From the NCBI GenBank assembly GCA_022113835.1, contig JAILWY010000029.1, positions 1,994,001-2,058,000 of the forward strand: a stretch of DNA of 64,000 nt. Direction: 5' to 3'. The position numbers and the translations under genes are program-made. The notes under the pieces are model-generated. The model searched no databases, was not told the origin of the DNA, and was given only the letters and a program-made list of their open reading frames with translations. This document shows, in pieces, positions 38,631 to 62,790 of this stretch. Position 1 is the first letter of the stretch. The number at the start of each line of letters is the position of its first letter. The stretch comes from Atopsyche davidsoni (Eukaryota; Arthropoda; Insecta; Trichoptera; Hydrobiosidae).

Positions 38631-39209
38631 CCTATCTTGATAGACAAGGACGCTAAGGCAGCTCAAGATAAGGCCACTAATGACGCTAAAGTTGCTGCAG
38701 ATCTAACCGTCAAGGCTGCTAAGAGTGGTGCAACTGATACCGATAAGAAGGCTGCTACTGCTGCTAATGAAAAGGCTAAGGCTTCAAAGGCTGCTGCAGA
38801 TAAGGCTGCTAAGGACGCTAAGGTTGTTGGAGCTAAGGCTGCTAAGGACACTAAAACTGCTGCAGATATGGCCGCTAAGGACGTTAAGGCTGCTAAAATT
38901 AAGGACGCTAAGGCTGTTCAAGATAAGACCGCTAAGAACGCTAAGGCTGCTCAAGATAAGGCCGATAAGGACGCTAAGGTTGCTGCAGATCTGAACGCCA
39001 AGGCTGTTAAGAGTAGTGCAACTGTTGCCGAGAAGAAGGATGCTGCTACTGCCAACGGAATCGCTAAGCAGTCTGCCATTGCAAATAAGGCCGCTCAAGA
39101 CGCTGATATTGCTGCCAAAAATAACGTTAAGGCTGCTCAATCAGCCAATGCAGGCACGTCAGTGACCGCAGGTGGTTCTGGTGCTGGTATTCAGGTCCAA
39201 TTAGGATGA
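38631..39209 (+). pseudogene. 5'-truncated family-2 gene with Ala/Lys helical repeats
   Basis: Open for about 190 codons ending VTAGGSGAGIQVQLG. The body is Lys/Ala/Asp-rich (ADKAAKDAKVVGAKAAKDTK type), predicted strongly helical and superficially like LEA or TolA repeats. The 3' side is clearly family 2: ACCACCCGAGGTTCACTCATTG, a donor with intron 39253-39486, and the exon beginning AAATCTTCGACTCCCTGAA, followed by AATAAA. The 5' side lacks everything the other members share: no TATA block, no MKTLLFALC signal, and an in-frame TGA at 38616-38618 with no ATG. CAG at 38628-38630 could be a splice acceptor, so an upstream exon cannot be excluded, but truncation with unrelated CG-rich DNA joined upstream is more likely. 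Confidence 0.55.
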
Positions 39210-39975
39210 AGGCCTAACCGGGGCAGAGAAACCACCCGAGGTTCACTCATTGGTAAGCTCTTGAAATATTGTTAATCTCAGGTCTAATGCGCGCGTTTGT
39301 ATCTTAATTCAATGTTTCTGAATACGACCGTATTGGTTAAAAAAGTGGCATTGCTTTGTTGGTCTATCTAACTTAAAAAGTTGCTTAGCATCATGATTTA
39401 ACTTTATTTGTGTTTTGTCTCATGATCAATCACTTATTTATAGGCACACTGAATTATTTAATTATAATATTGTTTTATTTTTACAGAAATCTTCGACTCC
39501 CTGAAACAACGCTAATTCCATGAAAAAAAAATATTTTTATTAAATATTAAAGTTACAAATATATATTTTACCTTTGCATATTTATAATTTCCCCTGATCA
39601 CTTATACACTGATATATGAATAAAAATACTAATAAATAATGTAATCAATATGTAAAAATAGTTTTTTTGTTTTTTTACTCACCTGCTTTTTTTTCCCCTT
39701 TGTAATTGTTCATAGATTTCTGTGAAAAAGATCGATGGTGTTTTCTTATGGTTTGTTTACCCGAATAGCCTTTACTTTCTTGGTGGTTCATTTGCTCTTC
39801 AGCGGGGTCAGGATAATTCCAATTCGTCAATGAATTCTTGAAGTCCATAAAAAAAAAACTATTGAGTCTGCCATACGAGTTGATGCAATCCACCCTAAAA
39901 AGGCTGCTTAAGGTTTGAATCTTTCTTATTTTCAGTACACGTGCTGAAAACCTGAAAAATCATGAATTTCGATTG

Positions 39976-40260
39976 AGTACTTTTCAGCTGCTCCTCTGTA
40001 TTTGAGCGCACCTCTCAGAGTACACTTCCATGTATATAACTAAATAACCGCAGGGTTTTACTTGTTCATGGAATCTCTTTTTCATAAGCGTTTTCCAAGA
40101 AACCATTTGAGTCTTTTACTACTACTATGTTATTTTCCATTACCGTAGTATATAAGGGGGCTCTCTCCATAATCGATGTTTTTAGAAAATATTTTGCGAA
40201 AAATCTACCGCACCAATAAAAAAAAAATAAATGCAAACAGTTAGATACATTCCTTCTTCT
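39976..40260. repeat. Family-2 upstream block, copy 1
   Basis: Direct copy of 44015-44290, about 80% or more identical by eye (TTGAGTACTTTTCAGCTGCT, GGGGGCTCTCTCCATAATCG). Together with the genes downstream it defines a duplication of roughly 4 kb carrying the genes at 40741 and 45313. Confidence 0.75.
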
Positions 40261-40611
40261 ACACAAAAAAAATATTTTATCCGCATAAATTTACTTTATA
40301 TATGAAATACGAGTATATGTGCATTTTGGAGATCATAAAAACTCACGGACCAAGAACCATAAGAATTTAAAAATATTTTTTTAATTGAAATTTAAAGATC
40401 GCATATAAAATTATTGCGGAAATAGAAATAGTACTTTTTTATGCTTTGGTTTTGAAAATTCGTCATTTTAACAAATTTTTCAACATCTTAAAATTAAGAT
40501 AACTCGTGAAGTTTAATTTTTTTTAGTACAATTCACTCTTTGAGAATGGGTTCAGTTTAGGAATCAAATAATCGGAAAAAATATTAATCAAAAATCAATG
40601 AATTGTTCTAA

Positions 40612-40616
<5 letters not shown>

Positions 40617-40671
<55 letters not shown>
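40617..40671. repeat. (TA)n microsatellite abutting a core promoter
   Basis: About 27 TA dinucleotides ending at 40671, three bases before the TATATAA box. In the paralogues this position holds a conserved 50-bp GC-rich proximal block, which is missing here. A shorter TA run lies about 60 bp further upstream of the paralogue at 45313. Confidence 0.9.
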
Positions 40672-40673
<2 letters not shown>

Positions 40674-40674
40674 G

Positions 40675-40681
40675 TATATAA
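40675..40681 (+). promoter_or_regulatory. TATA box of the gene at 40741
   Basis: TATATAA in GGGTATATAAGGTGGCC, exactly 66 bp before the ATG, as in all intact family-2 genes. Confidence 0.75.
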
Positions 40682-40740
40682 GGTGGCCCCAAGGCAGTTG
40701 GCAGGTACTCGTGAAGTTCTGCATACTCGCTCTGTCCAAG

Positions 40741-42036
40741 ATGAAGACCCCTCTGTTCGCGCTGTGCCTGGTGGGTGTAGCTGTTGCTCAGTTCATTGTG
40801 GAAGAAGACACTTCTCAGAACAGCAATGGCACTGTCAGCATCAATAGTTCTATGGAGAGTAGTATTTTGGAATCTATGAAAAGAACTGCAGATGTGGCTC
40901 CTCAGACTGCTAAGAGTAATGTAGCACCTGGCACAAAAATAGTTGCTAAGCCTGCAGCTAATACTAAGAGCAGTGCAGCGACTGGCTCTCAAAAACCCCA
41001 AATCGTGGCATCTAAAGCTTCTCCGACCGCTAAGAGTAATGTACCGTCTGCCACCAAAGCAGCTACTAAGCCTGCAGCTAATACTAAGAGCAGTTCAGCG
41101 ACTGGCCCTCAAAACCCACAAACCAACACACCTAAAGCATCTCCGACCGCTAAGAGTAATGTACCGTCTGCCACCAAAGCAGCTACTAAGCCTGCAGCTA
41201 ATACTAAGAGCAGTTCAGCGACTGGCCCTCAAAACTCACAAACCAACACACCTAAAGCATCTCCGACCGCTAAGAGTAATGTACCGTCTGGCACCAAAGT
41301 AGCTACTAAGCCTGCAGCTAATACTAAGAGCAGTTCAGCGACTGGCCCTCAAAACCCACAAACCAACACACCTAAAGCATCTCCGACCGCTAAGAGTAAT
41401 GTACCGTCTGGCACCAAAGCAGCTACTAAGCCTGCAGCTAATACTAAGAGCAGTTCAGCGACTGGCCCTCAAAACCCACAAACCAACATACCTAAAGCAT
41501 CTCCGACCGCTAAGAGTAATGTATCGTCTGGCACCAAAGCAGCTACTAAGCCTGCAGCTAATACTAAGAGCAGTTCAGCGACTGGCCCTCAAAACCCACA
41601 AACCAACATACCTAAAGCATCTCCGACCGCTAAGAGTAATGTATCGTCTGGCACCAAAGCAGCTACTAAGCCTGCAGCTAATACTAAGAGCAGTTCAGAG
41701 ACTGGCCCTCAAAACCCACAAACCAACACACCTAAAGCATCTCCGACCGCTAAGAGTAATGTACCGTCTGGCACCAAAGCAGCTACTAAGCCTGCAGCTA
41801 ATACTAAGAGCAGTTCAGCGACTGGCCCTCAAAACCCACAAACCAACACACCTAAAGCATCTCCGACCGCTAAGAGTAATGTAGCGTCTGGCACCAAAGC
41901 AACTGCTAAGCTTGCAGCTAATACTAAGAGCAGTGCAGCGACTTCCGCCAAAATAGCCAGTAGTAGCTCTAATGCTGTTGGTGGTTCTGGTTTTGTTGTT
42001 GGTTCTGGTGCTAGCTTAAATTCGAATCAAGGATGA
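40741..42036 (+). CDS. Secreted Thr/Lys/Ala/Asn-rich 40-residue repeat protein (family 2)
   Basis: 431 aa from AAGATGAAGACC. The start is chosen at the conserved MKT signal peptide (MKTPLFALCLVGVAVAQF); an upstream in-frame extension encodes only the TA repeat and 5'UTR. A short N-terminal region (NGTVSINSSMESSILESM, with N-glycosylation-type sites) precedes eight nearly identical 40-residue repeats of the form TAKSNVPSGTKAATKPAANT followed by KSSSATGPQNPQTNTPKASP, then a Gly/Ser tail (VGGSGFVVGSG). The protein is very basic and lacks Cys, so it should be extended and heavily O-glycosylatable. The 3'UTR carries the family intron (42062-42492) and AATAAA at 42665. Likely a secreted matrix, silk, glue or mucin component; not identifiable further. 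Confidence 0.75.
   Translation: MKTPLFALCLVGVAVAQFIVEEDTSQNSNGTVSINSSMESSILESMKRTADVAPQTAKSNVAPGTKIVAKPAANTKSSAATGSQKPQIVASKASPTAKSNVPSATKAATKPAANTKSSSATGPQNPQTNTPKASPTAKSNVPSATKAATKPAANTKSSSATGPQNSQTNTPKASPTAKSNVPSGTKVATKPAANTKSSSATGPQNPQTNTPKASPTAKSNVPSGTKAATKPAANTKSSSATGPQNPQTNIPKASPTAKSNVSSGTKAATKPAANTKSSSATGPQNPQTNIPKASPTAKSNVSSGTKAATKPAANTKSSSETGPQNPQTNTPKASPTAKSNVPSGTKAATKPAANTKSSSATGPQNPQTNTPKASPTAKSNVASGTKATAKLAANTKSSAATSAKIASSSSNAVGGSGFVVGSGASLNSNQG
40921..41946 (+). repeat. 120-bp coding tandem repeat, about 8.5 copies
   Basis: Period is exactly 120 bp (40 codons). Central copies differ by only one to three bases each, such as CCG/TCG and ACA/ATA changes, indicating recent homogenisation. 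The first and last copies are more diverged. Confidence 0.95.
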
Positions 42037-42713
42037 TGATAGCACGCAGTCCTATCCATCGGTATGTAGCATGAAATATTATGATTCAGGGTCTTTCCTA
42101 ATGAGTGCTGCGACGATTTAATGGAACCGAAACGTAATACTTAGAAACATTCATTTAACTTTAACTTTAATGAACTGCAAGTGTAGACCTTTTTTTTTAT
42201 TAACCCTCTTTGTATTATTTTTAATGAAGTATTATGCCATGAGAATGAATTTAATATACAATTATTGTGTATAATGGGCTTTTAACAGTATTTAGTTTAC
42301 GACCAATCGTTTCTTTAACTGAAATATCGGCGTGTTAACCCATCACGTGTCGACTGAAAGACACTTTATTAATTTTCCACTTGTATAAAAAAACCGTTGA
42401 CGAGAAGATATTACCAACAGGATGGACTTGTTAGTATGGCCGGAGAAATACTTCATGAGTAATAAATTTTAAATAACGTTTTATTTTTCCAGAAATCTTC
42501 GGTTTCCAGGCACGACGCTATTCCAGGAATGAAAATTATTACCAATATTTAAAAAAAAATGTGTAAACCTCATCACAATACATAATATAATATATATATA
42601 TAAATATAAATTTTCTTTTGGTCACTTCTACATTATTGTAAATATATATATTGATTAAAATCGCAATAAATGATGTATTTAATATCTGTGATTAATTATT
42701 TTCTTAATAATTT

Positions 42714-43987
42714 TGTAATGACAATAATACAAGGGGGCGTGTGGTTCAGGTCTTTATTACGATACGTGGTGGGATTACATTATAAAGTCACGACGCCGCC
42801 GCCGTGCGGCGTCCTCTCTCAGATGACAGAACTGTAATGCCCGCTCCCGGCCTCACCTCTCCTCGAGCGGGCCCTATGTTGCCAGTGCTCAGGACACCAT
42901 AGACTACATGCCCCTCTGATGTCACCATCATACGAAGGTCCTGAAGGCTGGAGATCCTCTCTCCCTTTGTTGCCGGCGTCGAGGCCATGCCACGTGGTTG
43001 TCGTCCTGCCCAGTGACTGCCGCACGAGGCCGCTCCCTCGCGTACTCCCGTCGCGGCCAGCTCCACTGCGCAGCCGGCACCATGAGACCGTGCGATATCG
43101 CCCCGCTCTGCACCCCTTGACTTCCTCGCGCCCCACGCCTCGCACGACCGCAACGAAACTCTCCGTCCGGCCGGTCCCTCCGTGGGTCCGCGCATCAAGC
43201 GCCATGCACGCGGCGGCATCCTCTTGATCACTCCGCTGCACGCGGCTGCATGCCTTGGCATCATCGCGTCCCACGCCTCGCACGACCGCGACGACACTCT
43301 GCGTCCGGCCTGTCCCTCCGTGGGTCCGCGCATCAAGCGCCATGCACGCGGCGGCATCCTCTTGATCACTCCGCTGCACGCGGCTGCATGCCTTGGCATC
43401 ATCGCGTCCCACGCCTCGCACGACCGCGACGACACTCTGCGTCCGGCCTGTCCCTCCGTGGGTCCGCGCATCAAGCGCCATGCACGCGGCGGCATCCTCT
43501 TGATCACTCCGCTGCACGCGGCTGCATGCCTTGGCATCATCGCGTCCCACGCCTCGCACGACCGCGACGACACTCTGCGTCCGGCCTGTCCCTCCGTGGG
43601 TCCGCGCATCAAGCGCCATGCACGCGGCGGCATCCTCTTGATCACTTCGCTGCACGCGGCTGCATAACCTCTCCTAGAGCGGGCTCTCTGTCCGATCGCA
43701 TCGCCCACGTGGTCTCCCAACCTCCAACGCCCTTCGCAGATCTTCCCAGCTCCACCAGTCTTCTCACCTCACACGCCCCCGCCGAAATAGCTTGTAATGA
43801 CAATAATACAAGGGGGCGTGTGGTTCAGGTCTTTATTACGATACGTGGTGGGATTACATTATAAAGTCACGACGCCGCCGCCGTGCGGCGTCCTCTCTCA
43901 GATGACAGAACTGTAATGCCCGCTCCCGGCCTCACCTCTCCTCGAGCGGGCCCTATGTTGCCAGTGCTCAGGACACCATAGACTACA
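42714..43987 (-). mobile_element. TRIM-like non-autonomous LTR retrotransposon, apparently recent
   Basis: 195-bp direct repeats at 42714-42908 and 43793-43987 look identical, begin TG and end CA, and are flanked by the 5-bp duplication AATTT. On the minus strand the LTR has TTTATAA followed by AATAAA near its 3' end, and a purine tract (AGAGGGGCA) directly precedes the 3' LTR, so the element is oriented minus. The 884-bp GC-rich interior has no gag/pol; its long frames on both strands come from a 138-bp repeat whose period is divisible by three. The homologous stretch at about 46885-46905 shows the empty site with a single AATTT. Confidence 0.85.
43150..43660. repeat. 138-bp GC-rich tandem repeat inside the TRIM
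   Basis: Units start at GGGTCCGCGCATCAAGCGCC: 43184, 43322, 43460 and 43598, exactly 138 bp apart and nearly identical. Open frames through it on both strands are an artefact of the period being a multiple of three. Confidence 0.9.
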
Positions 43988-44014
43988 AATTTCTACTCAC
44001 CTCAATCCTTGTCC

Positions 44015-44290
44015 TTGAGTACTTTTCAGCTGCTCCCCTGTATTTGAGCGCACCTCTCAGAGTATGCTTCCAAAGCCTTGTATATAAGTAAATAACCGCA
44101 GGATTTTACTTGTTCACGGGATTTCTTTTTCAAAAGCGTTTTCCATGAAACCATTTGAGTCTTTTACTATAAGCATACATGTTGTTTGCAATTACCGCAT
44201 AAGGGGGCTCTCTCCATAATCGATGTTTTTTAAAAATATTTTGCGAAAAATCTACTACACCAATAAAAAAAATTAAATTTAAAAAGTTGG
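44015..44290. repeat. Family-2 upstream block, copy 2
   Basis: Direct copy of 39976-40260, upstream of the gene at 45313. Its continuation to about 44800 also resembles the interior of the hAT elements at 47-53 kb (poly(T) runs, TTTTCCCGA, GTACGxAGCTxAC..GGAAATCGAAA). Confidence 0.7.
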
Positions 44291-45155
44291 ATACATTCTT
44301 TCGACTATATAAAAAAAATATTTTATCTCTTATAAATTAACTTTTAATATGAATAATATGTGTTTTCCCGAGTAGAGTTGAGGCACTTTGGAGATCATAA
44401 AATTTCCCAAGAACCCTGAGCATTTAGGACTTTTTTTTAAAATGGAATTTTAATAAAATTATTGCATATAAATAGTAAAAAAAAAAAAAAAAACTCTGGT
44501 TTTAAAAAGTCTTCATTTTATCAAATTTATCATCAGCTTTAAGGGGATTTTTTACCTTGATAAAAGACGTCATTAAAAAAAAATAAAAAAATATTTGAAT
44601 ATAAGTTTTTTAATATAAAAAAGTAATAAAGTGACAATTAAATAATTAAATGATACGATTTTGCAAAAAAGTGACAAAAGCTTACATCTTTTTTGTCAGT
44701 ACGCAGCTGACACCGGAAATCGAAAGCGAAGCGAAATCGTGTCATTAATTTTTATTTAATTGTCACTTTATTTTTCAATATTGAAAGTAACTATTATTAA
44801 TAAAATAATTAAAAATTTTAGTCATCTATTTTTTATTGCTTGATTAACGTCCCTTTTCAAGACAAGTCAAATACGCACACTACCCCGAATATAGGGTGTG
44901 AGCCCCAGAACTGGTGAGCAGGAGTACATTAGAAGACATTAATAATCGTAAAAATTAAGATAACTCTTGTGATATATTAACAATAATAACGAAAAGTCGC
45001 AGTTTAATTTTTTATGAAAATTCAGTCCTTGAGAATGGGTGCAGTTCAGGAATCGAAAAAAATATTAATCGAAAAAAAAAATATTTTTTAACACCTTTCT
45101 AAACTCGGCCTGTGGCACACACCCAATAAATATATATTATATGTATTTTTTTAAA

Positions 45156-45190
<35 letters not shown>

Positions 45191-45246
45191 GACGCATGCC
45201 ACTATGCCTAGTGCCGCGTTGGAGGTCACAGCTTGCCGGTCGCGGG

Positions 45247-45253
45247 TATATAA
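45247..45253 (+). promoter_or_regulatory. TATA box of the gene at 45313 with proximal GC block
   Basis: TATATAA, 66 bp before the ATG. The preceding block GTGCCGCGTTGGAGGTC..GCCGGTCGCGGG is shared with the genes at 49842, 55558 and 60284. Confidence 0.75.
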
Positions 45254-45312
45254 GGCGGCTCCACGGCAGTTGGCAGGTACTCGTGAAGTTCTGCAGACTC
45301 GCTCTATCCAAG

Positions 45313-45939
45313 ATGAAGACCCTTCTGTTCGCGCTGTGCCTGGTGGGTGTAGCTGTTGCTCAGTTCAAAGCGGAAGTAAAGTCTACTACGGCCCAAAATA
45401 AGACTATCAGCACCGGTAATACTTCAGTGAAAAGTACTACCGCTAAGAATGTTGAAACATCTGGCGTAAAAAAAACTAACATTGTTGCACCTAATGTTCT
45501 TCCAATGGCTGTTACTAAAAAACCCACTGTCACCGTAACTAAAAAACCTGCTGACACCGTAACTAAAAAACCTGCTGACACCGTAACTAAAAAAAACCCT
45601 GCCACCGTAACTAAAAAACCCGCCGACACCGTAACTAAAAAACCCACCGGCACCGTAACTAAAAAACCCACCGGCACCGTAACTAAAAAACCCACCGGCA
45701 CCACAACTAAAAAACCCACCGGCACCGTAACTAAAAAACCCGCTGGCACCGTAACTAAAAAACCCGCTGGCACCGTAACTAAAAAACCCGCTGGCACCGT
45801 AACTAAAAAACCCGCTGGCACCGTAACTAAAAAACCCGCTGGCACCGTAACTAAAAAACCCACTGGCACCGTAACTAAAAAACCCGCTGGCACCACTAAA
45901 CCTGTTTCTACATCTGCTGGTGGTTCTATTGTTGGCTGA
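45313..45939 (+). CDS. Secreted TKKPAGTV-repeat protein (family 2)
   Basis: 208 aa. Signal peptide MKTLLFALCLVGVAVAQF, identical to the neighbour at 40741 except for one residue. A short spacer (STTAKNVETSGVKKTNIV) is followed by about 17 repeats of the octapeptide TVTKKPAG (variants with D, T or N) and the tail STSAGGSIVG. Every repeat carries two Lys and two Thr, giving a highly basic, Pro-kinked, O-glycosylatable chain without Cys. The 3'UTR contains the family intron (46013-46388) and AATAAA at 46560. The stop codon is 73 nt before the junction, just beyond the usual limit for nonsense-mediated decay. Role inferred as secreted matrix or mucin-like material. Confidence 0.75.
   Translation: MKTLLFALCLVGVAVAQFKAEVKSTTAQNKTISTGNTSVKSTTAKNVETSGVKKTNIVAPNVLPMAVTKKPTVTVTKKPADTVTKKPADTVTKKNPATVTKKPADTVTKKPTGTVTKKPTGTVTKKPTGTTTKKPTGTVTKKPAGTVTKKPAGTVTKKPAGTVTKKPAGTVTKKPAGTVTKKPTGTVTKKPAGTTKPVSTSAGGSIVG
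45510..45900 (+). repeat. 24-bp coding repeat (ACCGTAACTAAAAAACCC)
   Basis: About 16 head-to-tail units of 24 bp (eight codons), with sparse substitutions and one extra-asparagine variant near 45595. Confidence 0.95.
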
Positions 45940-46489
45940 ATTTTAATCAAGGATGAAGATTAAACTGGACGCAACCCTTCAGCCATGAGGTCCTCCAGAG
46001 ATAACTTCATCGGTAAGTGTCCTTTTATAGACCCAAACTTTTTACGATTACGATTACGATTTTACGCTGAAAGAACTGCAAGCGTAGACCAGAATTTATT
46101 AAACGTCGTTGTGTTATTTTTAATGACATTTTATGCCGTGAGAATGAATTTAATGTACATTGATTTTAATAAGCTTTTAACAGCATTCAGTTTACGACCA
46201 ATCGATTCTTTAACTGAAATATCGGCGTGTTAACTCATCACGTATCGACTGAAAAACACTTTCTAAATGTTCCACGTGTATTAAAAATCCTCTGACGAGA
46301 ATATATTACCAACGAGATGGTTTTTTTTGTAAGGCCGGTATAATTACTCCATGATTAATATATTTAAAATAACGTTTTATTTTTCCAGGAATCTTCGGTT
46401 GCTAGACATGACGCTTTTACAGAAATGAAAATGACTACTAAATCAACAATATTTTAAATAAAAAATGTTTAAACCTCATCACAATACAT

Positions 46490-47060
46490 ATAATATATAT
46501 TTTTAAATTTTATTTTGGTCACTTCTACATTATTGTAAATATATATTGATTAAAATCGCAATAAATTATGTATTTAATATCTGTGATAAATTATTTTCTT
46601 GGTGATTTCTACCTTGTTTCTCCACTTCCCCATAGCCCTGAAAATTTGTCAGTCTATTTTGAAAGTTTTCAGTACACCCACAAAAGGTATAAAATCAAAT
46701 AAATATTTTTTTTGCTTCCCGCTCTGAAAAATCCCAATAAATATATAATATATTATACATAATATATAAATATATATATAAATACAAATTTTCTTTTGGT
46801 CTTTCTACATTATTGTAAATATATATATTGATTAAAATCGCAATAAATTATGTATTTAATATCTGTGATTAATTATTTTCTTGATAATTTCTACTCACCT
46901 CAATCCTTGTCTCTCCCCTTCCCCATAGCCCTGAGAGTTTTTCAGTCTATTTTGAAAGTTTTCAGTACACCCACAAAAAGTATAAAATCAAATAAATAAT
47001 TTTTTTGATTCCCGCTCTGAAAAATCCCAATAAATATATAATATATTATAAATTAATTTT
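46490..47060. repeat. 293-bp tandem duplication of the family-2 3' flank
   Basis: AGTCTATTTTGAAAGTTTTC occurs at 46651 and 46944, and the surrounding sequence (TATTGTAAATATATATTGAT, CAATAAATTATGTATTTAAT, CCCCATAGCCCTGA) is repeated with the same 293-bp offset. The second copy retains the intact TRIM target site. Confidence 0.85.
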
Positions 47061-47081
47061 TAATATATCAATCTCTTGATC

Positions 47082-48944: not shown

Positions 48945-49094
48945 TCTTAAACTATACATTTATATAGTTATTCCTTATTCTGGAGCACTCATCTTATAAG
49001 TATAGTAGTTAAGTTGGCTTTCGAGAAACAATGATAAATAAGGTATGAATAAAACATAAATAAGGGTCATTTATAAATAATAAAAATTGTAGAG

Positions 49095-49314
49095 CAGGGG
49101 TGGCCAACAAGTCGATTGCCGTTAAATAATTATGTTGTTTTATAATGCATTTTACTTATCTACCCACATTTCGCGAGTGTGCACCTCATGCTGAAACACA
49201 CTGTATATACATAGTATGTATTTCCCAATTGGGAAATTAGACTGCGTATTTGACAACAAGTCATTTTTAAAAAGAAAAAGTAGATCATATGTGCACAAAA
49301 CTTGGCCACCCCTG
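49095..49314. mobile_element. Short hAT MITE with perfect TIRs and target duplication
   Basis: Ends CAGGGGTGGCCAA and TTGGCCACCCCTG are perfect 13-bp inverted repeats. The flanking TTGTAGAG (49087-49094 and 49315-49322) is a perfect 8-bp target duplication. 220 bp, no coding capacity. Confidence 0.9.
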
Positions 49315-49775: not shown

Positions 49776-49782
49776 TATATAA
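49776..49782 (+). promoter_or_regulatory. TATA box of the gene at 49842
   Basis: TATATAA, 66 bp before the ATG, preceded by the conserved GTGCCGCGTTGGAGGTCGCA block. Confidence 0.75.
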
Positions 49783-49841
49783 GATGAGCCCACGGCAATT
49801 GGCAGGCATTCTTGAAGTTCCTCAAACACGTCCTGTCCAAG

Positions 49842-50207
49842 ATGAAGACCCTTCTGTTCGCGCTGTGCCTGGTGGGGGTGGTTATTGCTGTAGTCAGTAA
49901 GAGTGCACCCGCCGCCCCTGGAAGTGGAATGAAGGTTACAGGAACGACAGAAATCAATAAAAAAATAGTTCCTAAACCAGTTATGGTAAGCAATACTACA
50001 GCTGCAGCTCCAACAAGACCAGCGCAAGCGAAGAAACCGACTTCTCCAAAGAAACCGACTTCTCCAAAGAAACCGACTTCTCCAAAGAAACCCAAGAAAG
50101 CTCCGGCAAAAAAAGCCGTAAAAAAAACCAAAGCCGCCACTGTCAAGAAAACAAAAATTGTAAAAAAAACTCCACCAAAACCTGCCCCCAAGAAGACTAC
50201 TCCATAA
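49842..50207 (+). CDS. Small secreted Lys/Pro-rich, histone-H1-like basic protein (family 2)
   Basis: 121 aa. Signal peptide MKTLLFALCLVGVVIAVV, then a short spacer and three KKPTSP repeats followed by KAPAKKAVKKTKAATVKKTK and the end PPKPAPKKTTP. The C-terminal 60 residues resemble a histone H1 tail in composition, but the signal peptide and family flanks show it is a secretory product. Lys-rich, Cys-free. 3'UTR intron 50273-50612, AATAAA at 50766. The 3'UTR is closest to that of the truncated gene at 38631 (AACCACCCGAGGTT). A cationic secreted protein could bind acidic glycans, DNA or microbes, or act in adhesion; no evidence separates these. Confidence 0.75.
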   Translation: MKTLLFALCLVGVVIAVVSKSAPAAPGSGMKVTGTTEINKKIVPKPVMVSNTTAAAPTRPAQAKKPTSPKKPTSPKKPTSPKKPKKAPAKKAVKKTKAATVKKTKIVKKTPPKPAPKKTTP

Positions 50208-50639
50208 AGGCTTAACCAAAACAGAGAAGCAGCAGCCTTAAACCACGGGAACCACCCGAGGTTTCCTCATCGGTAAGCTGCTTGAAATATTTCGAGTTTC
50301 AGGATGTTGCGTCACAAATGCCTCGTATCTGTTTCTGAATAGTATTGGATAGAAGTAAAGTCATTGTTTTTTTTTGAGACATTTACTCACGTCTGCTATT
50401 CCGCATCCATGCTTACTTCATCCTTCCAATTCCTCTGTTTCCTTGGATCATTCCTTAGCTGCAAAAATATAGCATAATAGGCTTTTGCGTTATTTTAACC
50501 GTCACTGTATAATTTTAAACAGCGTCTTGTTTTTTAAAGCCCTCCGTCAAATTTCCATTACCGATTTCAACAATACACGATGAAAAAAAATTAAATTGTT
50601 TTTTTTTTTCAGAAATCTTCGGTTCCCTGAAGCAACGCT

Positions 50640-51991: not shown

Positions 51992-51999
51992 AGTTAGAC

Positions 52000-53483: not shown

Positions 53484-53491
53484 AGTTAGAC

Positions 53492-54396
53492 AGAACCAAG
53501 AGCTGCGCAAGAGACACGTGTGACGCAGCAGACACGCGTGTCACACATTCAAGCACGTGTCTGCCACGAGACGCGTATGTGCTGTCGCGATCACTGGTTC
53601 ACGATCGCTGCTGAAGACGTGCTTTGGTAAAACATGTGGTTTGAAGGCCTCACTTTCACTGTTGCTGAGTGGTGCCGTGTGTAAGACTGTTTATTTTGAC
53701 TTATTTTTCTTCTTCACATTTTTTAAAAATAGATTATTTCCGTATTGTTTTAACAAGTACAAGTTGTTTTATTTTTTTATATAAATTTCTTGAATTTATT
53801 TCAATAACTGGGAGAGTGAAACCCAGGAGGGATGGAACGGGACTGAAGTCTTCTACGATTGTCTGAATATTCACCGTTCCTGGAAGAAGGGGAGAGAGGT
53901 GAAAAGATTACTTGCGTCATGGCTTGGACTTATTGGACGGGTTCAAGACAGCGTATGGGTTTTCACACCCTTTTCTGAACTCTTCGTGGCGTTAGAAGAG
54001 GAGATGCTGGGGTTGATTGGCCGGTCGGTCATCTAACATGTCAAATTCATGGTTGTCTGTCAAACCTGGTTTTCTACTCCCTCTTATCCTTGCATCAGTA
54101 CAGTGTAAGGATTAGCCTGCTAAGGCTCGTCTTTCACTAAAAAAATAGGGGATGAAAAGGATATCAACAGGTAGCACTTGCTATTTAGGTAAGACGATCA
54201 AGTGTCAAAGAAAGGGTGCTGTACTTCAAATGTGACTACCTTGGATTGGACGAGGCAGCGTTAGACAGGGACAGGAAGAGGCTCTTCTTATTTACGATAA
54301 TCCATAGGGCTAGGTGACCTGAAAAAAAAGATTTACCTTGACAAGACCTGAAACACCCCCTATAATGCTTAAATCTTGTTCGTACCACAACATATT
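53492..54396. other. Intergenic with a CACGTG/ACGCGT-rich patch
   Basis: 53505-53580 contains repeated ACACGTGT, ACACGCGTGT and ACGCGT words, including the perfect palindrome GACACGCGTGTC. Further right, 53810-54350 is GC-richer and may be a decayed non-LTR element, but no protein motif could be read. Confidence 0.35.
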
Positions 54397-55491
54397 CATT
54401 ATGTATTTAAGATGATAGCACAGGTGCTCTTCGCCTGGGTTCGATAATTTTGGACTTGAATTTACGTAAACAGAATTTGCGCAGACAATAAGAATCTTAT
54501 AGGAGGTACAAAAAATTACTTACGAAAAAACTTATTCATTAATTACGTATTACTGCTACTTCGTTTGCAGTGCCAATGACCTTGAGAATTTCGTATATTT
54601 TTTAAACATTAAAAAAAAATACAATATCCTAGACTATAAACAACAATCCACTGACTGTTGTTAATGGCTTTGCGTTGCTGTAAAAAAATATTTGTAATAA
54701 TGATTAGGTTTTTCGCAAAAAGAGGTTTTAGTCTTTGGGCCTGAAATATTTTTCACAGGTTGATCTCACTGCCAATCTGCACTTTCTCACCATGTGCGCT
54801 CCACTCGCGTGCTAAATCACCCTGTATACTTAAAAAAAATATGTTGTGGCATTGATAAGAAATGACGATTGCGCTCAGGAATTCAGGACGCTGTTAGCGA
54901 TCCTCTTCCAGGTGTTTTGTTCAGCGCGAAAAACATCTTCGGCCAGCTGCTCGACGAGCCCCGCGGCCAAATATTTGAACACGACCAGGTCGTGGAAACC
55001 AAATATATTCATTGGAAAAAGTAGATTTAGAAAAATAAAATAATACGTTCACACACATATATATGTAAAGAAAATATATTTTCTTAATTTGATTTATCGG
55101 TAAAACAGTAGGCAGTCGATAAAATAGTCGTAACGTTCCATAGGGGGCGTCATTAGTGCTGGCATTTGACTGAACTGTCAGAGATTGCCGAATAAAATGT
55201 TAATTACAGTTTTAATTTTAGTAGGACTATAGACTTTAATTGTCATTTCTTTGTTTACAGTTAAGATATTAAACTTGTATTAAACTAAGAAACTATTATT
55301 ATTATGTGTGTAAATGTTAAAATAAAAAACTTTGTTTACAGAGCAACGCCGTTGTTTATTTTGTCTTATATATATAAAATATATAAATATTTAAAGAAGA
55401 TGTATTTATAGAATATATTATATAATATTTAAAAAAGACGCACGCCCCTGTGCGTAGAGCCGGGTCGGAGGCGCAGCTTGCCGGTCGCGGG

Positions 55492-55499
55492 TATATAAA
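55492..55499 (+). promoter_or_regulatory. TATA box of the gene at 55558
   Basis: TATATAAA, 66 bp before the ATG, preceded by GCGCAGCTTGCCGGTCGCGG. Confidence 0.75.
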
Positions 55500-55557
55500 G
55501 TGGCCACGCGGCAGTCGGCAAGTACTCCCGGAGTTCCGCAGACTCGCCCTGTTCAAG

Positions 55558-56706
55558 ATGAAGATCCTTCTAATCGCAATGTGTCTGGTGGCTGCCCAGG
55601 CCCAAACCGCCCCCCCGACCCGGGCCCCAACTGCTGCCCCGACCCAGGCCCCAACCGCTGCCCCGACCAAGGCCCCAACCGCTGCCCCGACCCAGGCCCC
55701 AACCGCTGCCCCGACCAAGGCCCAAAGCGGTCCCCCGACCCAGGCCCAAAGCGGTCCCCCGACCCAGGCCCAAACCGCTGCCCCGACCCAGGCCACAACC
55801 GGTGTCCCTACCGCCACCTCCACTTTTGCCCCTGGTAAACCTCATCGCCTTTGCAGGAAGAAAGGACGTAAAGCATACCCGAAAAAACATTTTCAATACA
55901 AAAGACGCCCTGTTCATAAAATGCAAAAAAAAAACATAAGACTTGGAAACAGAAGAAAAATTGCAAAAACACCTAAAAATTTTAACATCCCCGGAAAATG
56001 TCACAATGGTACCTCTGGCAATCCCACTGGACATAGTTTCTCCAAAATTAGTGCTGAGAAAAATACCGAAAAAAATTTCGGGTTGAAAAAGAATTGCTTA
56101 AATTCCTCCATGTCCACCAACAGACCGCCAACCATCTTACCCAATGCCATAAAATTAACCATGTTCAGACCATTGCCAATGAGCCCATTTGACAATAGAA
56201 AAGAGATTGTTGCAGAGCAGAAAAAACCCGCTGTTACACTAGCCGCAGCTAGCAAAACTGATGATAAAGGCAAGAATACTCCTAAACACGCTGAAGCCAA
56301 TCATGACGATAAGAGCAAGACCGCTCCCAAGCCTCCTGTAAAAACTCAAGATCAGACCAATACCACTCCCAAGACCGTTTCCAGGCCTGTCGAAAAGAAA
56401 GATGAGGATAAGAGCAAGACCACTCCCAAGACCGTTTCCAGGCCTGTCGATAACAAAAACGAGGATAAGAGCAAGACCACTCCCAAGCCTCCTGTAACAA
56501 AAACTCAAGATCAGACCAAGATCACTCCCAAACCTCCTGTAACAAAAACTCAAGATCAGACCAAGATCACTCCCAAACCTCCTGTAACAAAAACTCAAGA
56601 TCCGGCCACGGCCACTACCAAAACCATTTTCAAGATCCTCAAAGACGAAGCTAAAATTGTATTAAGTTCAACCGTTAGACCCATTTCTGTAAAAATAGCG
56701 ATATAG
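55558..56706 (+). CDS. Secreted mucin-like protein with APTxAPT and TPKPPVTKTQ repeats (family 2)
   Basis: 382 aa. Signal peptide MKILLIAMCLVAAQAQ. Next, about 15 short repeats of the APTQAPTAAPTKAPTA type (mucin-like, dense in Thr and Pro), then a Lys/Arg-rich segment (RKKGRKAYPKKHFQYKRRP) with a few Cys, a variable region with NGT/NSS sequons, and a C-terminal repeat domain built from KSKTTPKTVSRPVDNKNEDK and TPKPPVTKTQDQTKI units, ending ILSSTV-type sequence and VKIAI. 3'UTR intron 56741-57114, AATAAA about 57352. Its closest relative is the duplicate gene at 60284; the 3' half and UTR are nearly identical between them while the mucin block differs. Likely an extracellular mucin or adhesive component. 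Confidence 0.78.
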   Translation: MKILLIAMCLVAAQAQTAPPTRAPTAAPTQAPTAAPTKAPTAAPTQAPTAAPTKAQSGPPTQAQSGPPTQAQTAAPTQATTGVPTATSTFAPGKPHRLCRKKGRKAYPKKHFQYKRRPVHKMQKKNIRLGNRRKIAKTPKNFNIPGKCHNGTSGNPTGHSFSKISAEKNTEKNFGLKKNCLNSSMSTNRPPTILPNAIKLTMFRPLPMSPFDNRKEIVAEQKKPAVTLAAASKTDDKGKNTPKHAEANHDDKSKTAPKPPVKTQDQTNTTPKTVSRPVEKKDEDKSKTTPKTVSRPVDNKNEDKSKTTPKPPVTKTQDQTKITPKPPVTKTQDQTKITPKPPVTKTQDPATATTKTIFKILKDEAKIVLSSTVRPISVKIAI

Positions 56707-57549
56707 CTGAATTAGTGCTTGGCCCGAGATTTCTTCATCAGTAAGTAACTTTGAATATTACATATCTCAGGTAGATGATGGCTCACGTGACTCATAGAAC
56801 TTTTTTTTGTTGCAGTATTTCACGCACTAAGTATTGTAAACACAGACGATAACTATAATGGGATAATCAGAATTGAATATCAAAGATAATCAAAACTTAA
56901 TCATGATATTTTTGAGTGCCACATTGAGTTACAACCGTCGTTGAAAATCTATCGTTATCATCTTTACAATCAATAAAATAGTGCGTGGCTTCATTAGATA
57001 CATTTTTCATAAATTAGCATTAAAGAAAAAACCTTTTTTAATTTTCCAAAAATTTGCTATAGATTGCAATATTGAACTGTATGGTAAATTAATAAAAATG
57101 TTTTATTTTTACAGAAATTTGAAGATTTTTGATACAACGTGATCCTAGAGAAGAAATTTTTTTTTAAAATAAATTTAACAGTAATATAAATAATTTTAAA
57201 AAAGCTGCTGACGTCGTTATGTGAACATATAAACTGTATGTATTCATAATGACCGAAATCTAACCGGAAGGAAGTTCATTCGAGGACCTGCATTTGCAAG
57301 TTAGACTTCTCATCTCTTCAATATCCCTTATATATATATTTAAAAAATTATAATAAATAATGTATTGCATAAATAATGTGTTTTTTTTATGTTACCTGCT
57401 TGTCTGCTTTCCGTCCCAGCGCCTCTCTCCTATCCATATTTTTTTATTTTATTAAATTAATTGGATCATTCCAACATCCCACATCGCTCCCTTCATTCAT
57501 ATGAGTGATGAGGGAAGCTTGCGGGGAAGAAAAAAAAACTGGTTTTTCT

Positions 57550-58125
57550 CTCTGATCCAGTGGCCACTTTTCCTGCTCAAAGCCTTTCACTCCTTCTCTG
57601 AAGCGTGGACGGGACCAGCTGTCTGTGGAGCCGTTCCAGGTGGCTCAAAAGACTCTCGAGGAAGCTACCAAAGCTCGGTGAGTCCCCTATCATTGGATTG
57701 GGACAATGCGTCCACTGCTCATGAGTCGACGCGCTCCGACGGTGCTGGCAGCTCTGTACTGTTCCTGCCCTTGAGTTAGAGAGATCTTCATTCGTTCAGC
57801 TGCTCATGCTGTCTTGTAGTGGGCCAGCTCCATGGTCGAGGTCTACACCTCTGCTTCGTAGAGGTCCTATGACAGGCTCACACTGGCGAGAATGTCCTTC
57901 TTACACTGCTCAGGTCCTCCTAGGTAGAGGAGCAGTTGTGACAAGGTCGTAATAGTGGACCAGCTGCCAGATATAGTCAGCGCACTTCCTGGAGACATCA
58001 AAGTACACCCCCAAGTACCAGACTGACTTCTGGGGAACGATTGGTTGGTCTTGTATAACGAACCGCGGAATCTCGAGCCTTCGTCTCACGTAAATAGGAC
58101 GGCCTCGGTCTTCTACTATATACAA
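57550..58125 (-). mobile_element. Non-LTR retrotransposon fragment (reverse-transcriptase C-terminal side)
   Basis: The minus strand reads IVPQKSVWYLGVYFDVSRKC, the YLGVxxD motif found at the thumb side of Jockey/CR1-type reverse transcriptases, followed by WQLVHYYDLV. Downstream, coding-like pieces (PSFGSFLESLLSHLERL) occur in other frames, so the copy is frameshifted and 5'-truncated. The family cannot be assigned further. Confidence 0.45.
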
Positions 58126-58204
58126 ATATTAATGCCATCCCATAAAGTAGGAAGAGGCAACGTATCGTACAAAAATATAACAAACAAATATGTTTTCATG
58201 GCTC

Positions 58205-58525
58205 CTGCAAAGGGGGAATTTCCGGGATCAATGTAGGAAATGTGGGAATAAATGCCGGTAGTAACAAATAAGGGAGTAAATGCCTGCAGTAAGGCAGGAA
58301 ATAAAGGAGTAAATTCCCGGATGAATGTAGGAAATTAAGGTGTAAATTCTGGAATAAATGTAGTAAATATGGGAATAAATGCTTGTAGTAACAAATAAGG
58401 ACGTAATTGCCTGCATTAAGGTAGGAAATAAAGGAGTAAATTCCCGGATGAATGAAGGAAAAAAAGGATTAAATGCCGGTTGTAACAAATAAGGTAATAA
58501 ATGCCAACAATAACTTGAAAATTGC
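58205..58525. repeat. Degenerate 25-30-bp minisatellite
   Basis: About 11 imperfect units of GGAATAAATGCCGGTAGTAA / GGAGTAAATTCCCGGATGAA type, with a longer-range repeat of roughly 130-140 bp. It lies next to the non-LTR fragment and is absent from unit B. Confidence 0.8.
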
Positions 58526-59040
58526 CATCTACATTTCAACGCGGAGAGCGATTATCAGACGTGGTACATACATTTTTGTTTTGTCATAGATTAAAAAAGT
58601 TTTTTTTTAATTTATTACTATTTTTATTGCTAAATATTATACATTAAATACGTCATTGTCAGTGTATGTATATTTGTCGCCAATCTCATGCCAGTTTTTG
58701 TATGACGGATAATTCGTCATAGCTTAGCGTGGTTGAGCTGAAAAATTATTTAATTATTTTTGAAGAACTTTACACATATTTTTCCCAACACGAACTCATT
58801 AAAAATATACATATATACCCAACCTAGCCTAAGCCACATGTTGTAAGCCTCTCAACTTGCGTACTCCAAGAACAATATAATATTTTTTATTTATATGCAA
58901 CAATAAAATAATTCCGTAATTTATTTTCACTGATTGTGAATTCCAGATAATCCTAGCAGAGCACAGAATATGCGCTTAAATAATATTGACTGGAATATCT
59001 AGAAACAAAAATTTAAATAACGTCATGGCTGTAAAGTAGA
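58526..59040. other. AT-rich spacer in unit A
   Basis: No gene or repeat recognised. Confidence 0.4.
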
Positions 59041-59789
59041 CATTTTCACTTCATTTATATTATATTCTCTAACACAGTATATTAATATTATATAATTTGC
59101 CACGATAATTAAAAATAATTATTTATTAATAATGATTTAAAGTCTTGGTATATTTTGGTTCTGCTTTCTCTTCACTCTGGTGTGAGTTTCGCGATTGTCT
59201 GTGTTCCTTGTTATTTATTATTTATATAATATCGTTTATTTTTGCGGGTTGTTTGTAAATTTGTTATGTAGTATAACTTTGAAAATATTATGTCAATACG
59301 TTTATATATTTGGGAGAAAAAATCTCAGTGATACTGGTAAATTTTGGGACTTTAATGGCTGACAGTTCGTCAGGGTTTTTGTGCATATTTGCCCTCAACG
59401 GACCACACGAGAATGGCGGAAGATAAATAAATACCATATTATTTTTATAATAGATATTATTTTAGATAGATGTGTTTAAGATGATAGCACAGGTGCTCTT
59501 CGCCAGGGTTCAATAATTTTGGACTGCGATACATTTCCGTAAACAGAATTCGCGCAGGCAATAAGAATCTTATAGGGGTTACAAAAAAATACTTGCTTAA
59601 AAATTTATTCATTAATTACGTATCGTTGCTACTTATTTTGCTGTGCCGATGACCTTGAGAATTTTGTATATTTTTTAATCATTAAAAAAAAGCAATAATC
59701 CTCTGACTGTTGTTAATGGCTTTGCGTTGCTGTAAATAGTTATTTGTGATAATTATCAGGTTTTTCGTAGTAAGAGGTATTTTATATTA

Positions 59790-60160
59790 TATTTACGCGA
59801 GGGATGCGTTCCGGAAAAAATCGGGTTGAGTGATGAAGTGATTGAGTGATGTTCATTATGCAGTAACATGTAATACTGCATAATGAACACATTATGCAGT
59901 ATTACATGTTATTTTTACTGAAAAATAGATCCATTGTCTTTTGGGTGACGTTTCTTTTGCGTTCATGTAAAATACGTTCATAACACCCAACGCTGTTTTA
60001 AATTGTTAAGAGATGTCAATAACTACATTATGTTCATACACATTCTTAAAATTATAAATTCGCGTAGTGCGAGGCATTTTAAAGCGATATTTTAAATTCG
60101 CGTTAAAGTGAAACCGCGCATAACGGGGTCGCGTAAAGCGGGGTATTACTGGTATATATA
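59790..60160. mobile_element. Possible MITE with overlapping perfect hairpins
   Basis: This segment replaces the corresponding part of unit A. Its edges carry related inverted sequence (TTTACGCGAGGG..ATGCG on the left, CGCATAACGGGGTCGCGTAAA on the right). Inside are two mutually exclusive perfect inverted repeats: 59851-59865 with 59874-59888 (15 bp) and 59865-59884 with 59891-59910 (20 bp). No coding frame. Confidence 0.5.
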
Positions 60161-60217
60161 TTTAAAGAAGACGCACGCCCCTGCGCGCAGTGCCGGGTCG
60201 GAGGAGCAGCTTTCCGG

Positions 60218-60225
60218 TATATAAA
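60218..60225 (+). promoter_or_regulatory. TATA box of the gene at 60284
   Basis: TATATAAA, 66 bp before the ATG. The seven-base TCGCGGG piece of the proximal block found in the paralogues is missing here. Confidence 0.75.
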
Positions 60226-60283
60226 GCGGCCTCGCGCCAGTCAGCAAGTACTCCCGGAGCTCTGCAGACTCGCCCTGTCCAAG

Positions 60284-61498
60284 ATGAAGACTCTTCTGGT
60301 CGCACTGTGCCTGGTGGGAGCTGCCCAGAGTTATTTTGCCACACTAACCAGTCCCCCGACCCAGGCCCCAACCGGTGCCCCGACCCAGGTCACATCCGTT
60401 TCCCCGAGCCAGGCCACATCCGTTTCCCCGACCCAGACTACATCTGGTTCCTCTATCGCTGCCTCCGCTTCTACTCCTGCTAAACGCGGCCTTTGCAAAA
60501 ATAACAAAAAGAAAGGAATTTCGAAAAAACGCCGTTATCTCCTCCAAAGACGAAATTTTCTTAAAATGCAAAAAAAAAACAAAGCACTTGGAAACAGAAG
60601 AAATATTAAAATGATTCAAAATTTGAACGACTCCAAAAAAAATCGCAATTGTACTTCTGGCAATCACACTGCACATGGTTCCGATGGTGCTGGGAACGGT
60701 ACCGGAAAATATGAAAGTTATTCTGGGGGGAAAAATAATTGCTCGAATTCCTCAGCCCCTAAAACAAACATGTTCATTAACAGTCCGCCAACCATGCCAC
60801 ACAATGACATAAAATTATCCATAGTCACACCACTGCAACCGATCCCAGTTGAAAATAAAAAATGGAACGACATTGCTGCTCATAAAAATGAAGGTTCAGA
60901 GAAAAAAAAACCCGCTGTTTCATCAGTCGCAGGTGCTAAAACTGACGATAAAGGCAAGAATACTCCTAAACACGCTGAAGCCAATCATGACGATAAGAGC
61001 AAGACCGCTCCCAAGCCTCCTGTAAAAACTCAAGATCAGACCATGTCCGCTTCCAGGCCTGTCGAAAAGAAAGATGAGGATAAGAGCAAGACCGCTCCCA
61101 AGACCGTTCCCAGGCCTGTCGATAACAAAAACGAGGATAATAGCAAGACCACTCCCAAGACCGTTCCCAGGCCTGTCGATAGCAAAAACGAGGATAAGAG
61201 CAAGACCACTCCCAAGCCTCCTGTAACAAAAACTCAAGATCAGACCAAGATCACTCCCAAACCTCCTGTAACAAAAACTCAAGATCAGACCAAGATCACT
61301 CCCAAACCTCCTGTAACAAAAACTGAAGATCAGACCAAGATCACTCCCAAACCTCCTGTAACAAAAACTCAAGATCCGGCCACGGCCACTACCAAAACCA
61401 TTTTCAAGATCCTCAAAGACGAAGCTAAAATTGTATTAAGTTCAACCGTTAGACCCATTACTTCGCAGGTTAAACTTTCTGTAAAAATAGCGATATAG
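60284..61498 (+). CDS. Secreted mucin-like protein, tandem duplicate of the gene at 55558 (family 2)
   Basis: 404 aa. Signal peptide MKTLLVALCLVGAAQSYF; a shorter mucin block (SPPTQAPTGAPTQVTSVS); Lys/Arg-rich segment (NNKKKGISKKRRYLLQRRNF) with Cys; sequon-rich middle (NCTSGN, NSSAP); then the same C-terminal repeats as 55558 (KTAPKTVPRPVDNKNEDN, ITPKPPVTKTEDQT) with one more repeat, and an extra TSQVKL before VKIAI. 3'UTR intron 61533-61901 and the 3' flank match the duplicate closely. The C-terminal 3' half is much more alike between the duplicates than the N-terminal half, which suggests gene conversion or faster change in the mucin block. Confidence 0.78.
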   Translation: MKTLLVALCLVGAAQSYFATLTSPPTQAPTGAPTQVTSVSPSQATSVSPTQTTSGSSIAASASTPAKRGLCKNNKKKGISKKRRYLLQRRNFLKMQKKNKALGNRRNIKMIQNLNDSKKNRNCTSGNHTAHGSDGAGNGTGKYESYSGGKNNCSNSSAPKTNMFINSPPTMPHNDIKLSIVTPLQPIPVENKKWNDIAAHKNEGSEKKKPAVSSVAGAKTDDKGKNTPKHAEANHDDKSKTAPKPPVKTQDQTMSASRPVEKKDEDKSKTAPKTVPRPVDNKNEDNSKTTPKTVPRPVDSKNEDKSKTTPKPPVTKTQDQTKITPKPPVTKTQDQTKITPKPPVTKTEDQTKITPKPPVTKTQDPATATTKTIFKILKDEAKIVLSSTVRPITSQVKLSVKIAI

Positions 61499-62790
61499 CT
61501 GAATTAGTGCTTGGCCCGAGATTTCTTCATCAGTAAGTAACTTTGAATATTACATATCTCAGGTAGATGATGGCTCACGTGACTCTTAGAACTTTTGCCA
61601 TTTTTATAGACCTTTTTTTTGTTGTAAACACAGACGATAACTACAATGGGATAATCAGAATTGAATATCAATGATAATCAAATCTTAATCATGATATTTT
61701 TGAGTGCCACATTGAGTTACAACCGTCGTTGAAAATCTATCGTTATCATCTTTACAACCAATAAAATAGTGCGTGGCTTCATTAGATCCATTTTTCATAA
61801 ATTAGCATTAAGGAAAAAACCTTTTTTAATTTTCCAAAAATTTGCTATAGATTACAATATTGAACTGGATGATAAATTAATAAAAATGTTTTTTTTTACA
61901 GAAATTTGAGAATTTTTGATACAACGCGATCCCAGAGAAGAAACTTAAAAAAAATAAATTAACCAGTAATATAAATAATTTAAAAAGAGCTGTTGACGTC
62001 GTTATGTGAACATATAAACTGTATGTATTCATAATGACTGAAATCTAACCGGAAGGAAGTTCATTCGAGGACCTGCATTTGCATGTTAGACTTCTGATCT
62101 CTTCAATATCCCTTATATATATATATTTTAAAAATTATAATAAATAATGTATTGCATAAATAATGTGTTTTTTTTATGTTACCTGCTTGTCTGCTTTCCG
62201 TCCCTGCGCCTCTCTCCTATCCATAATTTTTTTATTTTATTAAATTGGAATGAACGAAGGGAGTGATGAGGGAAGCCTGCGGGGAAGAAATGAAAAAAAA
62301 CTGGTTTTCTCTCTGATCCAGTGACCACTGTTCCTGCTCAAAGCCTTCCACTTTATATATAGTAGTATTATAATATTATATAATATTGTATTGTAGTATT
62401 ATAATATTATATAAAAAATATATAATTTGCCAGGATAATTAAAAATGTATAAAAAATTATTATTATTAAAAGTCTTGGTATATTTTGCTTCTGCTTTCTC
62501 TTCACTCTGGTGAGAGTTATTTATTATTTATATAATATCGTTTATGTTGACAGGTTTTTTGTTAATTTATTATGTAGTATTACTTTGAAAATATTATGTC
62601 AATACGTTTATATATTTGGGAGAAAAAAAATTCAGTGTTACTGCCTAATTTTGGGACTTTAATGGCTGACAGTTCGTAAAGGTTTTTGTGCATATTTGCC
62701 CTCAACGGACCACACGAGAAAGGCGAAAGGTAAATAAATTCCATATTATTTTTATAATAGATATTATTATAATAAAAATTTATAAATATA

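Follow-up and report, generated by a model that had tools for sequence, protein, structure and literature searches.

Silk adhesives diversify so fast that homology between them is lost, and silk biology has yet to explain how they do so. We address it with a locus of the caddisfly Atopsyche davidsoni, where a constant module and a variable body stand side by side in one array, so that the turnover of the bodies can be measured against fixed flanks. The window analysed here is a stretch of 64,000 nucleotides (G000:C29:1994001-2058000; contig JAILWY010000029.1, here C29) in an assembly of 370.7 Mb and 80 contigs. It contains five small intact genes (g1-g5) and a headless copy (g0); starts beyond the window are named G1-G5. 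Positions there are given as window-equivalent coordinates, in the window numbering carried past its ends, and the reading took in 40 kb on its left and 120 kb on its right. We suggest, with a probability of about two-thirds (0.68), that these sequences represent a silk adhesive cluster working like the caddisfly cadhesins or the moth sericins: a tandem array of one module, behind which the bodies turn over.

A common 5' module in front of different bodies

From its ATG, each of g1-g5 is an open single-exon open reading frame (ORF). The TATA box, the 5' untranslated region (5'UTR), the signal peptide and the body are contiguous within one ORF in 5/5 genes, as far as sequence alone can tell. 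In all five, TATATAA begins 66 nt ahead of the ATG and is followed by a similar 5'UTR, CAAGATGAAG. The signal peptide, compared by eye in the translations, has the form MKxxLxAxCLV with a hydrophobic core in 5/5. Ahead of the TATA box, g2-g5 retain a further element, and g1 has a (TA)26 run in its place. Behind the bodies, an intron in the 3'UTR is predicted in 6/6 copies (g0-g5); it is 234-431 bp long, with the donor CATYR/GTAWG lying 25-73 nt past the stop and the acceptor TTTTNCAG/RAATYT leading into a terminal exon with polyadenylation-type signals. The region behind this intron in g2 includes a tandem duplication (46505-47053). A 35-place pattern of the 5' module was matched five times in the window, against a mean of 0 in 100 shuffles. 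The claim of the first-pass annotation that the five genes share core promoter, 5'UTR, signal peptide and 3'UTR intron is thus borne out. The features are listed in Table 1.

Table 1. Features of the array, in window or window-equivalent (w.e.) numbering unless C29 is named; CDS, coding sequence; aa, amino acids.
Feature	Position	Strand	Description
g0	38637-39209	+	headless copy, Ala/Lys-rich body, without 5' module, in-frame stops ahead of body
g0 3'UTR intron	39253-39486	+	predicted; common to g0-g5
g1 5' module	40675-40788	+	TATA box 40675-40681, 5'UTR, signal peptide; pre-TATA element replaced
g1 CDS	40741-42036	+	431 aa, body of 40-aa TAKSN repeats
g1 3'UTR intron	42062-42492	+	predicted; then terminal exon, AATAAA at 42665
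g2 5' module	45247-45360	+	
g2 CDS	45313-45939	+	208 aa, TVTKKPAG octads
g2 3'UTR intron	46013-46388	+	predicted
g3 5' module	49776-49889	+	
g3 CDS	49842-50207	+	121 aa, KKPTSP/H1-like basic body
g3 3'UTR intron	50273-50612	+	predicted
g4 5' module	55492-55605	+	signal peptide shorter by one codon
g4 CDS	55558-56706	+	382 aa: PTQA mucin-like stretch, basic middle, KPPVTKTQ repeats
g4 3'UTR intron	56741-57114	+	predicted
g5 5' module	60218-60331	+	
g5 CDS	60284-61498	+	404 aa, body type as in g4
g5 3'UTR intron	61533-61901	+	predicted
Two relics	w.e. 64901-64953, 102694-102746		frameshifted, similar signal-peptide module, upstream of G1 and G2
G1	w.e. 65896-93213	+	giant ORF, 9,105 aa, Thr/Ser/Pro mucin
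G2	w.e. 104449-111975	+	ORF, ~2,508 aa, Thr/Ser/Pro mucin
G3	G000:C29:2111306-2262025 (w.e. 117306-268025)	+	single-exon ORF, 50,239 aa
G4		+	Thr/Ser/Pro mucin; TATA box and signal peptide (MKSLLIVFCLAGAVVGQ), in frame with C-terminal match C29:2266139-2266708, giving ~786 aa
G5	C29	+	TATA box and signal peptide (MKSLLIVLCLIGAAVGQ); start only, body unread

The similarity ends close to the signal peptide. In ungapped windows of 24 nt, g1 and g2 agree at 20-24 positions between the TATA region and the end of the signal peptide and at 10-15 afterwards; g2 and g3 agree at 16-24 up to the signal peptide and at 4-11 afterwards. Both pairs reach 24/24 inside the signal peptide. For g4/g5 the drop falls inside the signal peptide owing to a 3-base gap and, when this is corrected, 10-16 of 24 agree afterwards; the two signal peptides match at 36/45 positions when gapped, which the ungapped 30/48 understates.

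The bodies were compared in all 15 pairs of g0-g5 against composition-shuffled controls. Fourteen pairs lie inside the controls (z -1.3 to 2.8), and only the g4/g5 bodies are clearly homologous (z 67.9), so that the six copies carry five types of body. The g2 protein is dominated by Thr and those of g3-g5 by Lys, while g1 is of Ser/Ala type, its Ser (17.4%) being level with Ala; Ser stays below 10% in g2-g5. A Pfam search with the five window proteins gave no match, nor did an Rfam search. The statement that the mature parts are different repeats therefore holds with the exception of g4/g5, and is qualified for g1/g2, which are alike at both body edges. Very recent whole-gene duplication with equally similar bodies, named beforehand as the alternative, is not what is seen: the bodies fall mostly inside the shuffled controls, and ordinary whole-gene duplication of the five genes was rejected on the same 14 of 15 pairs.

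The g1/g2 pair is instructive for the mode of change. Its body score (z 2.8) is the highest of the other 14 pairs; after the signal peptide 61 of 102 aligned bases agree, a match extends to 40864/45439, and at the end of the CDS there is a 59-bp match of 73%. Judging from these alignments, it is the central repeat array that appears to have been exchanged or re-expanded within a homologous frame. The alignable edges favour turnover in place over the capture of a wholly new body. A bolder idea, which we put forward only tentatively, is that the duplicated promoter-signal cassette serves as a launch pad for unrelated bodies, some possibly derived from local non-coding tandem repeats, so that one copy came to encode 50,239 aa and a sister 121 aa.

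The array beyond the window and its giant members

The 35-place pattern was also run over the whole genome with up to 3 mismatches allowed and the reversed pattern as control. It gave 13 matches, 12 of them on C29, all on the plus strand within 236 kb (2034737-2270352). Nine of these 12 have 0-1 mismatch, whereas the single match elsewhere has 3; the reversed control gave 2. The array thus comprises two relics and ten starts that look intact, all in one orientation, and the bodies read span 121 to 50,239 aa. In conotoxin superfamilies and insect glue genes the signal region likewise outlasts the mature part, but there the mature parts stay comparable in size, while the bodies of this array differ ~400-fold in length.

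A hidden Markov model (HMM) of the five small modules matches G3 (E 2.6e-6), G2 (1.3e-5) and G1 (0.0077) in the 224 kb searched. Reciprocally, an HMM of the giants finds all five small genes (E 7.4e-5 to 0.0019), g5 in its second half only. The relics score ~1e-4 with the giant HMM and 0.06 with the small one, and their surroundings are 90% alike over 600 bp. G1, G2 and G3 have a promoter block of their own in common and are Thr-dominated; besides the Thr/Ser/Pro repeats, G1-G4 have a C-terminal region of a different kind in common. Among the best candidates scored, DNA searches with the 5' modules of g2 and g5 found the five window loci only, and a search with one 3' module found this locus only, bar two short matches on C18.

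The largest member is G3, whose ATG lies at C29:2111306 and whose stop lies at 2262023, 150.7 kb in one exon. It combines a TATA promoter, a signal peptide, Thr/Ala/Val/Ser/Pro repeats and the C-terminal region common to G1, G2 and G4; Lys is absent from its twelve commonest residues. The first 66,695 bases were read and hold 22,231 codons without a stop. The final ~84 kb rests on an open frame of 50,263 codons reported by the search program around the C-terminal match and on 7 further downstream samples, all in frame with the same repeat; three other samples lie beyond the gene. The same kind of figure agrees for G2 (2,541) and gives 9,156 against 9,136 for G1, a difference ascribed to one stop inside the match.

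Openness of the frame was rejected as proof of coding on its own, as the opposite strand offers a frame with only 4 stops in G3 and one without any in G1. We therefore counted single-base differences between repeat units that create stops, observed against expected. In the first 66.7 kb of G3 there are 0 against 53-62 expected (six lags), and in G1 0 against 17, so that the frame of G3 is apparently maintained; G2 also has 0, with an expectation of only 0.8, and is uninformative. The controls behave differently: an antisense frame of G3 has 838-953 against 929-1131 expected, and a wrong frame of the neighbouring gene at 32148 has 5 against 6.3. Exact repeats in the first 66.7 kb reach 1.5 kb and not 3 kb; thus long accurate reads could have assembled this stretch, though the length of G3 could still be wrong.

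A hand estimate based on the composition of the 22,231 residues read puts the G3 product at roughly 4.7 MDa. The largest known protein, PKZILLA-1, has 45,212 aa, which the predicted G3 would exceed, and it would be the largest predicted animal protein known to us. If translated, it would be a record, to our knowledge, both as an animal protein and as a single coding exon, and it would raise the question of how the secretory pathway handles a mucin of this mass.

Turnover, selection and duplication

We suggest the following scheme for the array. Tandem duplication would have produced a head-to-tail series of secreted, low-complexity genes with a single coding exon, of which g1-g5 form the small end. 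The common 5' module, comprising the TATA box, a short 5'UTR, the ATG and a signal peptide of ~16 residues, would allow expression of every copy in a single secretory tissue, for which the larval silk (labial) gland is the likeliest candidate. The repeat body behind it would be free to turn over, we infer by slippage and unequal exchange, and this would yield proteins of three kinds: basic ones of Lys/Pro/Thr, mixed mucin/basic ones, and giant Thr/Ser/Pro mucins that reach 50,239 aa. Together they probably make the silk's hydrated adhesive coat. A glue of mixed polyelectrolyte or glycoprotein type would be in keeping with basic Lys/Pro/Thr proteins that occur next to giant mucins.

The 3'UTR intron was used as a rough neutral yardstick for conservation of the 5' block. 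For g1/g2 the 5' block is the better conserved of the two (110/116 against 307/373 in the intron, p=0.0005); for g4/g5 it is the less conserved one (137/158 against 345/364, p=0.002). Intron comparisons for g2/g3 and g1/g3 cover 30 aligned bases each and carry little weight, shuffled introns so aligned averaging 0.71. Among the repeat units of g1, 3 of 29 single-base codon differences are synonymous (25% expected), and among those of g2, 1 of 10 (27% expected). There is no sign of purifying selection among the units within either gene, and the small number of synonymous differences suggests bodies that can drift or be renewed freely. The initial proposal that regulation and secretion are selected while the bodies are replaced is thus upheld as to the constant cassette and the changing bodies, which continue beyond the window, but the evidence for selection is mixed. 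Taken as sequence, the shared 5' module is inherited and probably functional; strong constraint on it is not proven.

Could recent tandem duplication alone explain the pattern, with repeat slippage far outpacing point substitution and no selection on regulation or secretion needed? Spacer segments between the units, which have no known function, are alignable, and matches over 280 bp are 77-84% alike, close to the 63-91% of promoter and 5'UTR in pairs without the replaced g1 element, although the spacer matches were chosen for alignability and overstate the similarity. Whole units of 4.5-5.7 kb (ATG spacing) were thus duplicated, and the likeness of the flanks partly reflects recency. The better conserved intron of g4/g5 and the similar body edges of g1/g2 speak for the same explanation, while the excess of the 5' block over the intron in g1/g2 speaks against it, as does a module that is recognisable between small and giant genes with seemingly unrelated bodies. 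We consider duplication alone possible, at less than even odds.

Gene conversion between neighbours, and not selection, might also keep the 5' modules alike, as the copies are tandem and of one orientation. It would fit g1/g2, where the stretch between the TATA box and the end of the signal peptide is almost the same (110/116) and the intron stands at 0.82, but the neighbours g4/g5 behave in the opposite way (5' block 0.87, intron 0.95), and we regard conversion as unlikely.

The spacer between g1 and g2 also holds a 138-bp tandem repeat (43126-43665; 3.9 copies, 98% alike) with open frames on both strands.

Relation to silk and to other secreted proteins

According to PMC11092239, the cadhesins of Limnephilus lunatus come from two clusters on one chromosome, which hold 15 heterogeneous, mostly Ser/Thr-rich genes. 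Most caz genes have two exons, a short first one with part of the signal peptide, and caz1, caz8 and caz9 carry an extra 3'UTR exon; the largest Caz listed is of 222 kDa, and the words 'promoter' and 'upstream' do not occur in the main text. Like the cadhesins as described there, the array consists of clustered secreted repeat genes whose repeats differ per copy, and the compositions lie near those of G2 and g2. G2, with T 33.7, A 25.3 and P 14.5%, is close to Caz4 (T 40.1, A 22.3, P 17.4%), which we count in favour of the silk-adhesive cluster. Unlike in most caz genes, signal peptide and body lie in one exon, and we therefore call the array silk-adhesive-type and not cadhesins.

Other silk genes share some of these traits. 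The pseudofibroins of Plectrocnemia conspersa are partly clustered and have repetitive bodies and signal peptides, but they have two exons and 32-44% Ala (PMC9432349), whereas the array has one coding exon and is Thr/Lys/Pro-, Ser/Ala- or Thr/Ser/Pro-rich. In Neomicropteryx cornuta, sericin-like genes for giant hydrophilic repeat proteins of 10,692 and 13,021 aa adjoin a small one on a single contig (PMC11906653), akin to the array, and pyralid moth sericins form duplicated clusters as here (PMC9745057). Such sericin-like genes differ in having two or four exons and 21-57% Ser, the largest being ~1/4 of G3 (PMC11906653, PMC9745057). The Ser-dominated composition of sericins is found neither in g1-g5 nor in the Thr-dominated G1-G3. 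No published array with a shared module and giant bodies was found in a search that left subscription journals and bioRxiv mostly outside.

The genome has an L-fibroin gene (PF05849; E 2.5e-9 with one exon, 9.9e-22 with four joined exons, over the cut-off). L-fibroin is described in Lepidoptera and Trichoptera, and P25 as not found in Trichoptera (PMC9504780, PMC9432349). By such marks the genome is most likely that of a caddisfly or an early-branching moth, a caddisfly being favoured. The first-pass annotation had spoken of a candidate undescribed lineage-specific silk, glue or mucin system. A silk or glue role is plausible in view of L-fibroin and of the published clustered Ser/Thr-rich caddisfly adhesives; as a kind, however, such a system is already in print (PMC11092239).

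The proteins might instead be secreted mucins of another tissue, with the same gene structure and evolution, acting in the peritrophic matrix, as a salivary lubricant, or as an egg glue or accessory-gland product. Any mucin could show such a Thr/Ser/Pro composition and giant size, and L-fibroin lies on a different contig. The closest architecture found is nevertheless that of caddisfly silk proteins, with clusters of heterogeneous repeat genes, three of them with an extra 3'UTR exon, and we hold a different tissue to be rather unlikely.

Several observations weigh against the silk-adhesive cluster as we propose it. The selection signal in the flanks contradicts itself between g1/g2 and g4/g5. 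In the giant bodies, the synonymous fraction between units is 0.668 in G2 against 0.331 expected, 0.371 against 0.308 in G1 and 0.266 against 0.310 in G3, so that an excess is clear in G2 alone. When small and giant 5' blocks are aligned pair by pair, the 15 pairs score z 1.1-7.2, many of them no higher than the best shuffle, so that it is the HMMs, the pattern and collinearity that tie the small genes to the giants. No relatives turned up in protein searches with g5 and with the C-terminus of G2. The array is on C29 and L-fibroin on C15, so that no linkage to a known silk gene is seen. P25/fibrohexamerin (PF07294) had no match in the genome, nor in any control genome, and the silkworm FibH N-terminus had none in the genome, in a search without a positive control. 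Finally, the assembly contains two insect COX1 types, one on C33 and the other on C46, C54, C61, C67, C75 and C77. The 16.2-kb C33 type is presumably dipteran, perhaps from prey or contamination, and the commoner type we take to be lepidopteran or trichopteran. The RNA polymerase second-subunit family, the single family judged, gave 8 exon matches in 3 loci, which points to one nuclear genome.

Left of the array, the window holds a sushi-repeat exon (PF00084, 13018-13440, plus strand) and a small secreted gene of apparently two exons (36321-36800, plus strand) with the end PKPKPEFGIGIKLTRRF, perhaps an antimicrobial-type peptide, which has no Pfam match. A second secreted group, with MKxLxxL starts and a different signal peptide, adjoins the array at 25806-26378 and 27298-28347 on the minus strand and at 29797-30111 and 32148-34328 on the plus strand. 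Two of its genes have SNGAPVVV-type repeats. A tRNA-Trp call (27599-27693) falls within an ORF.

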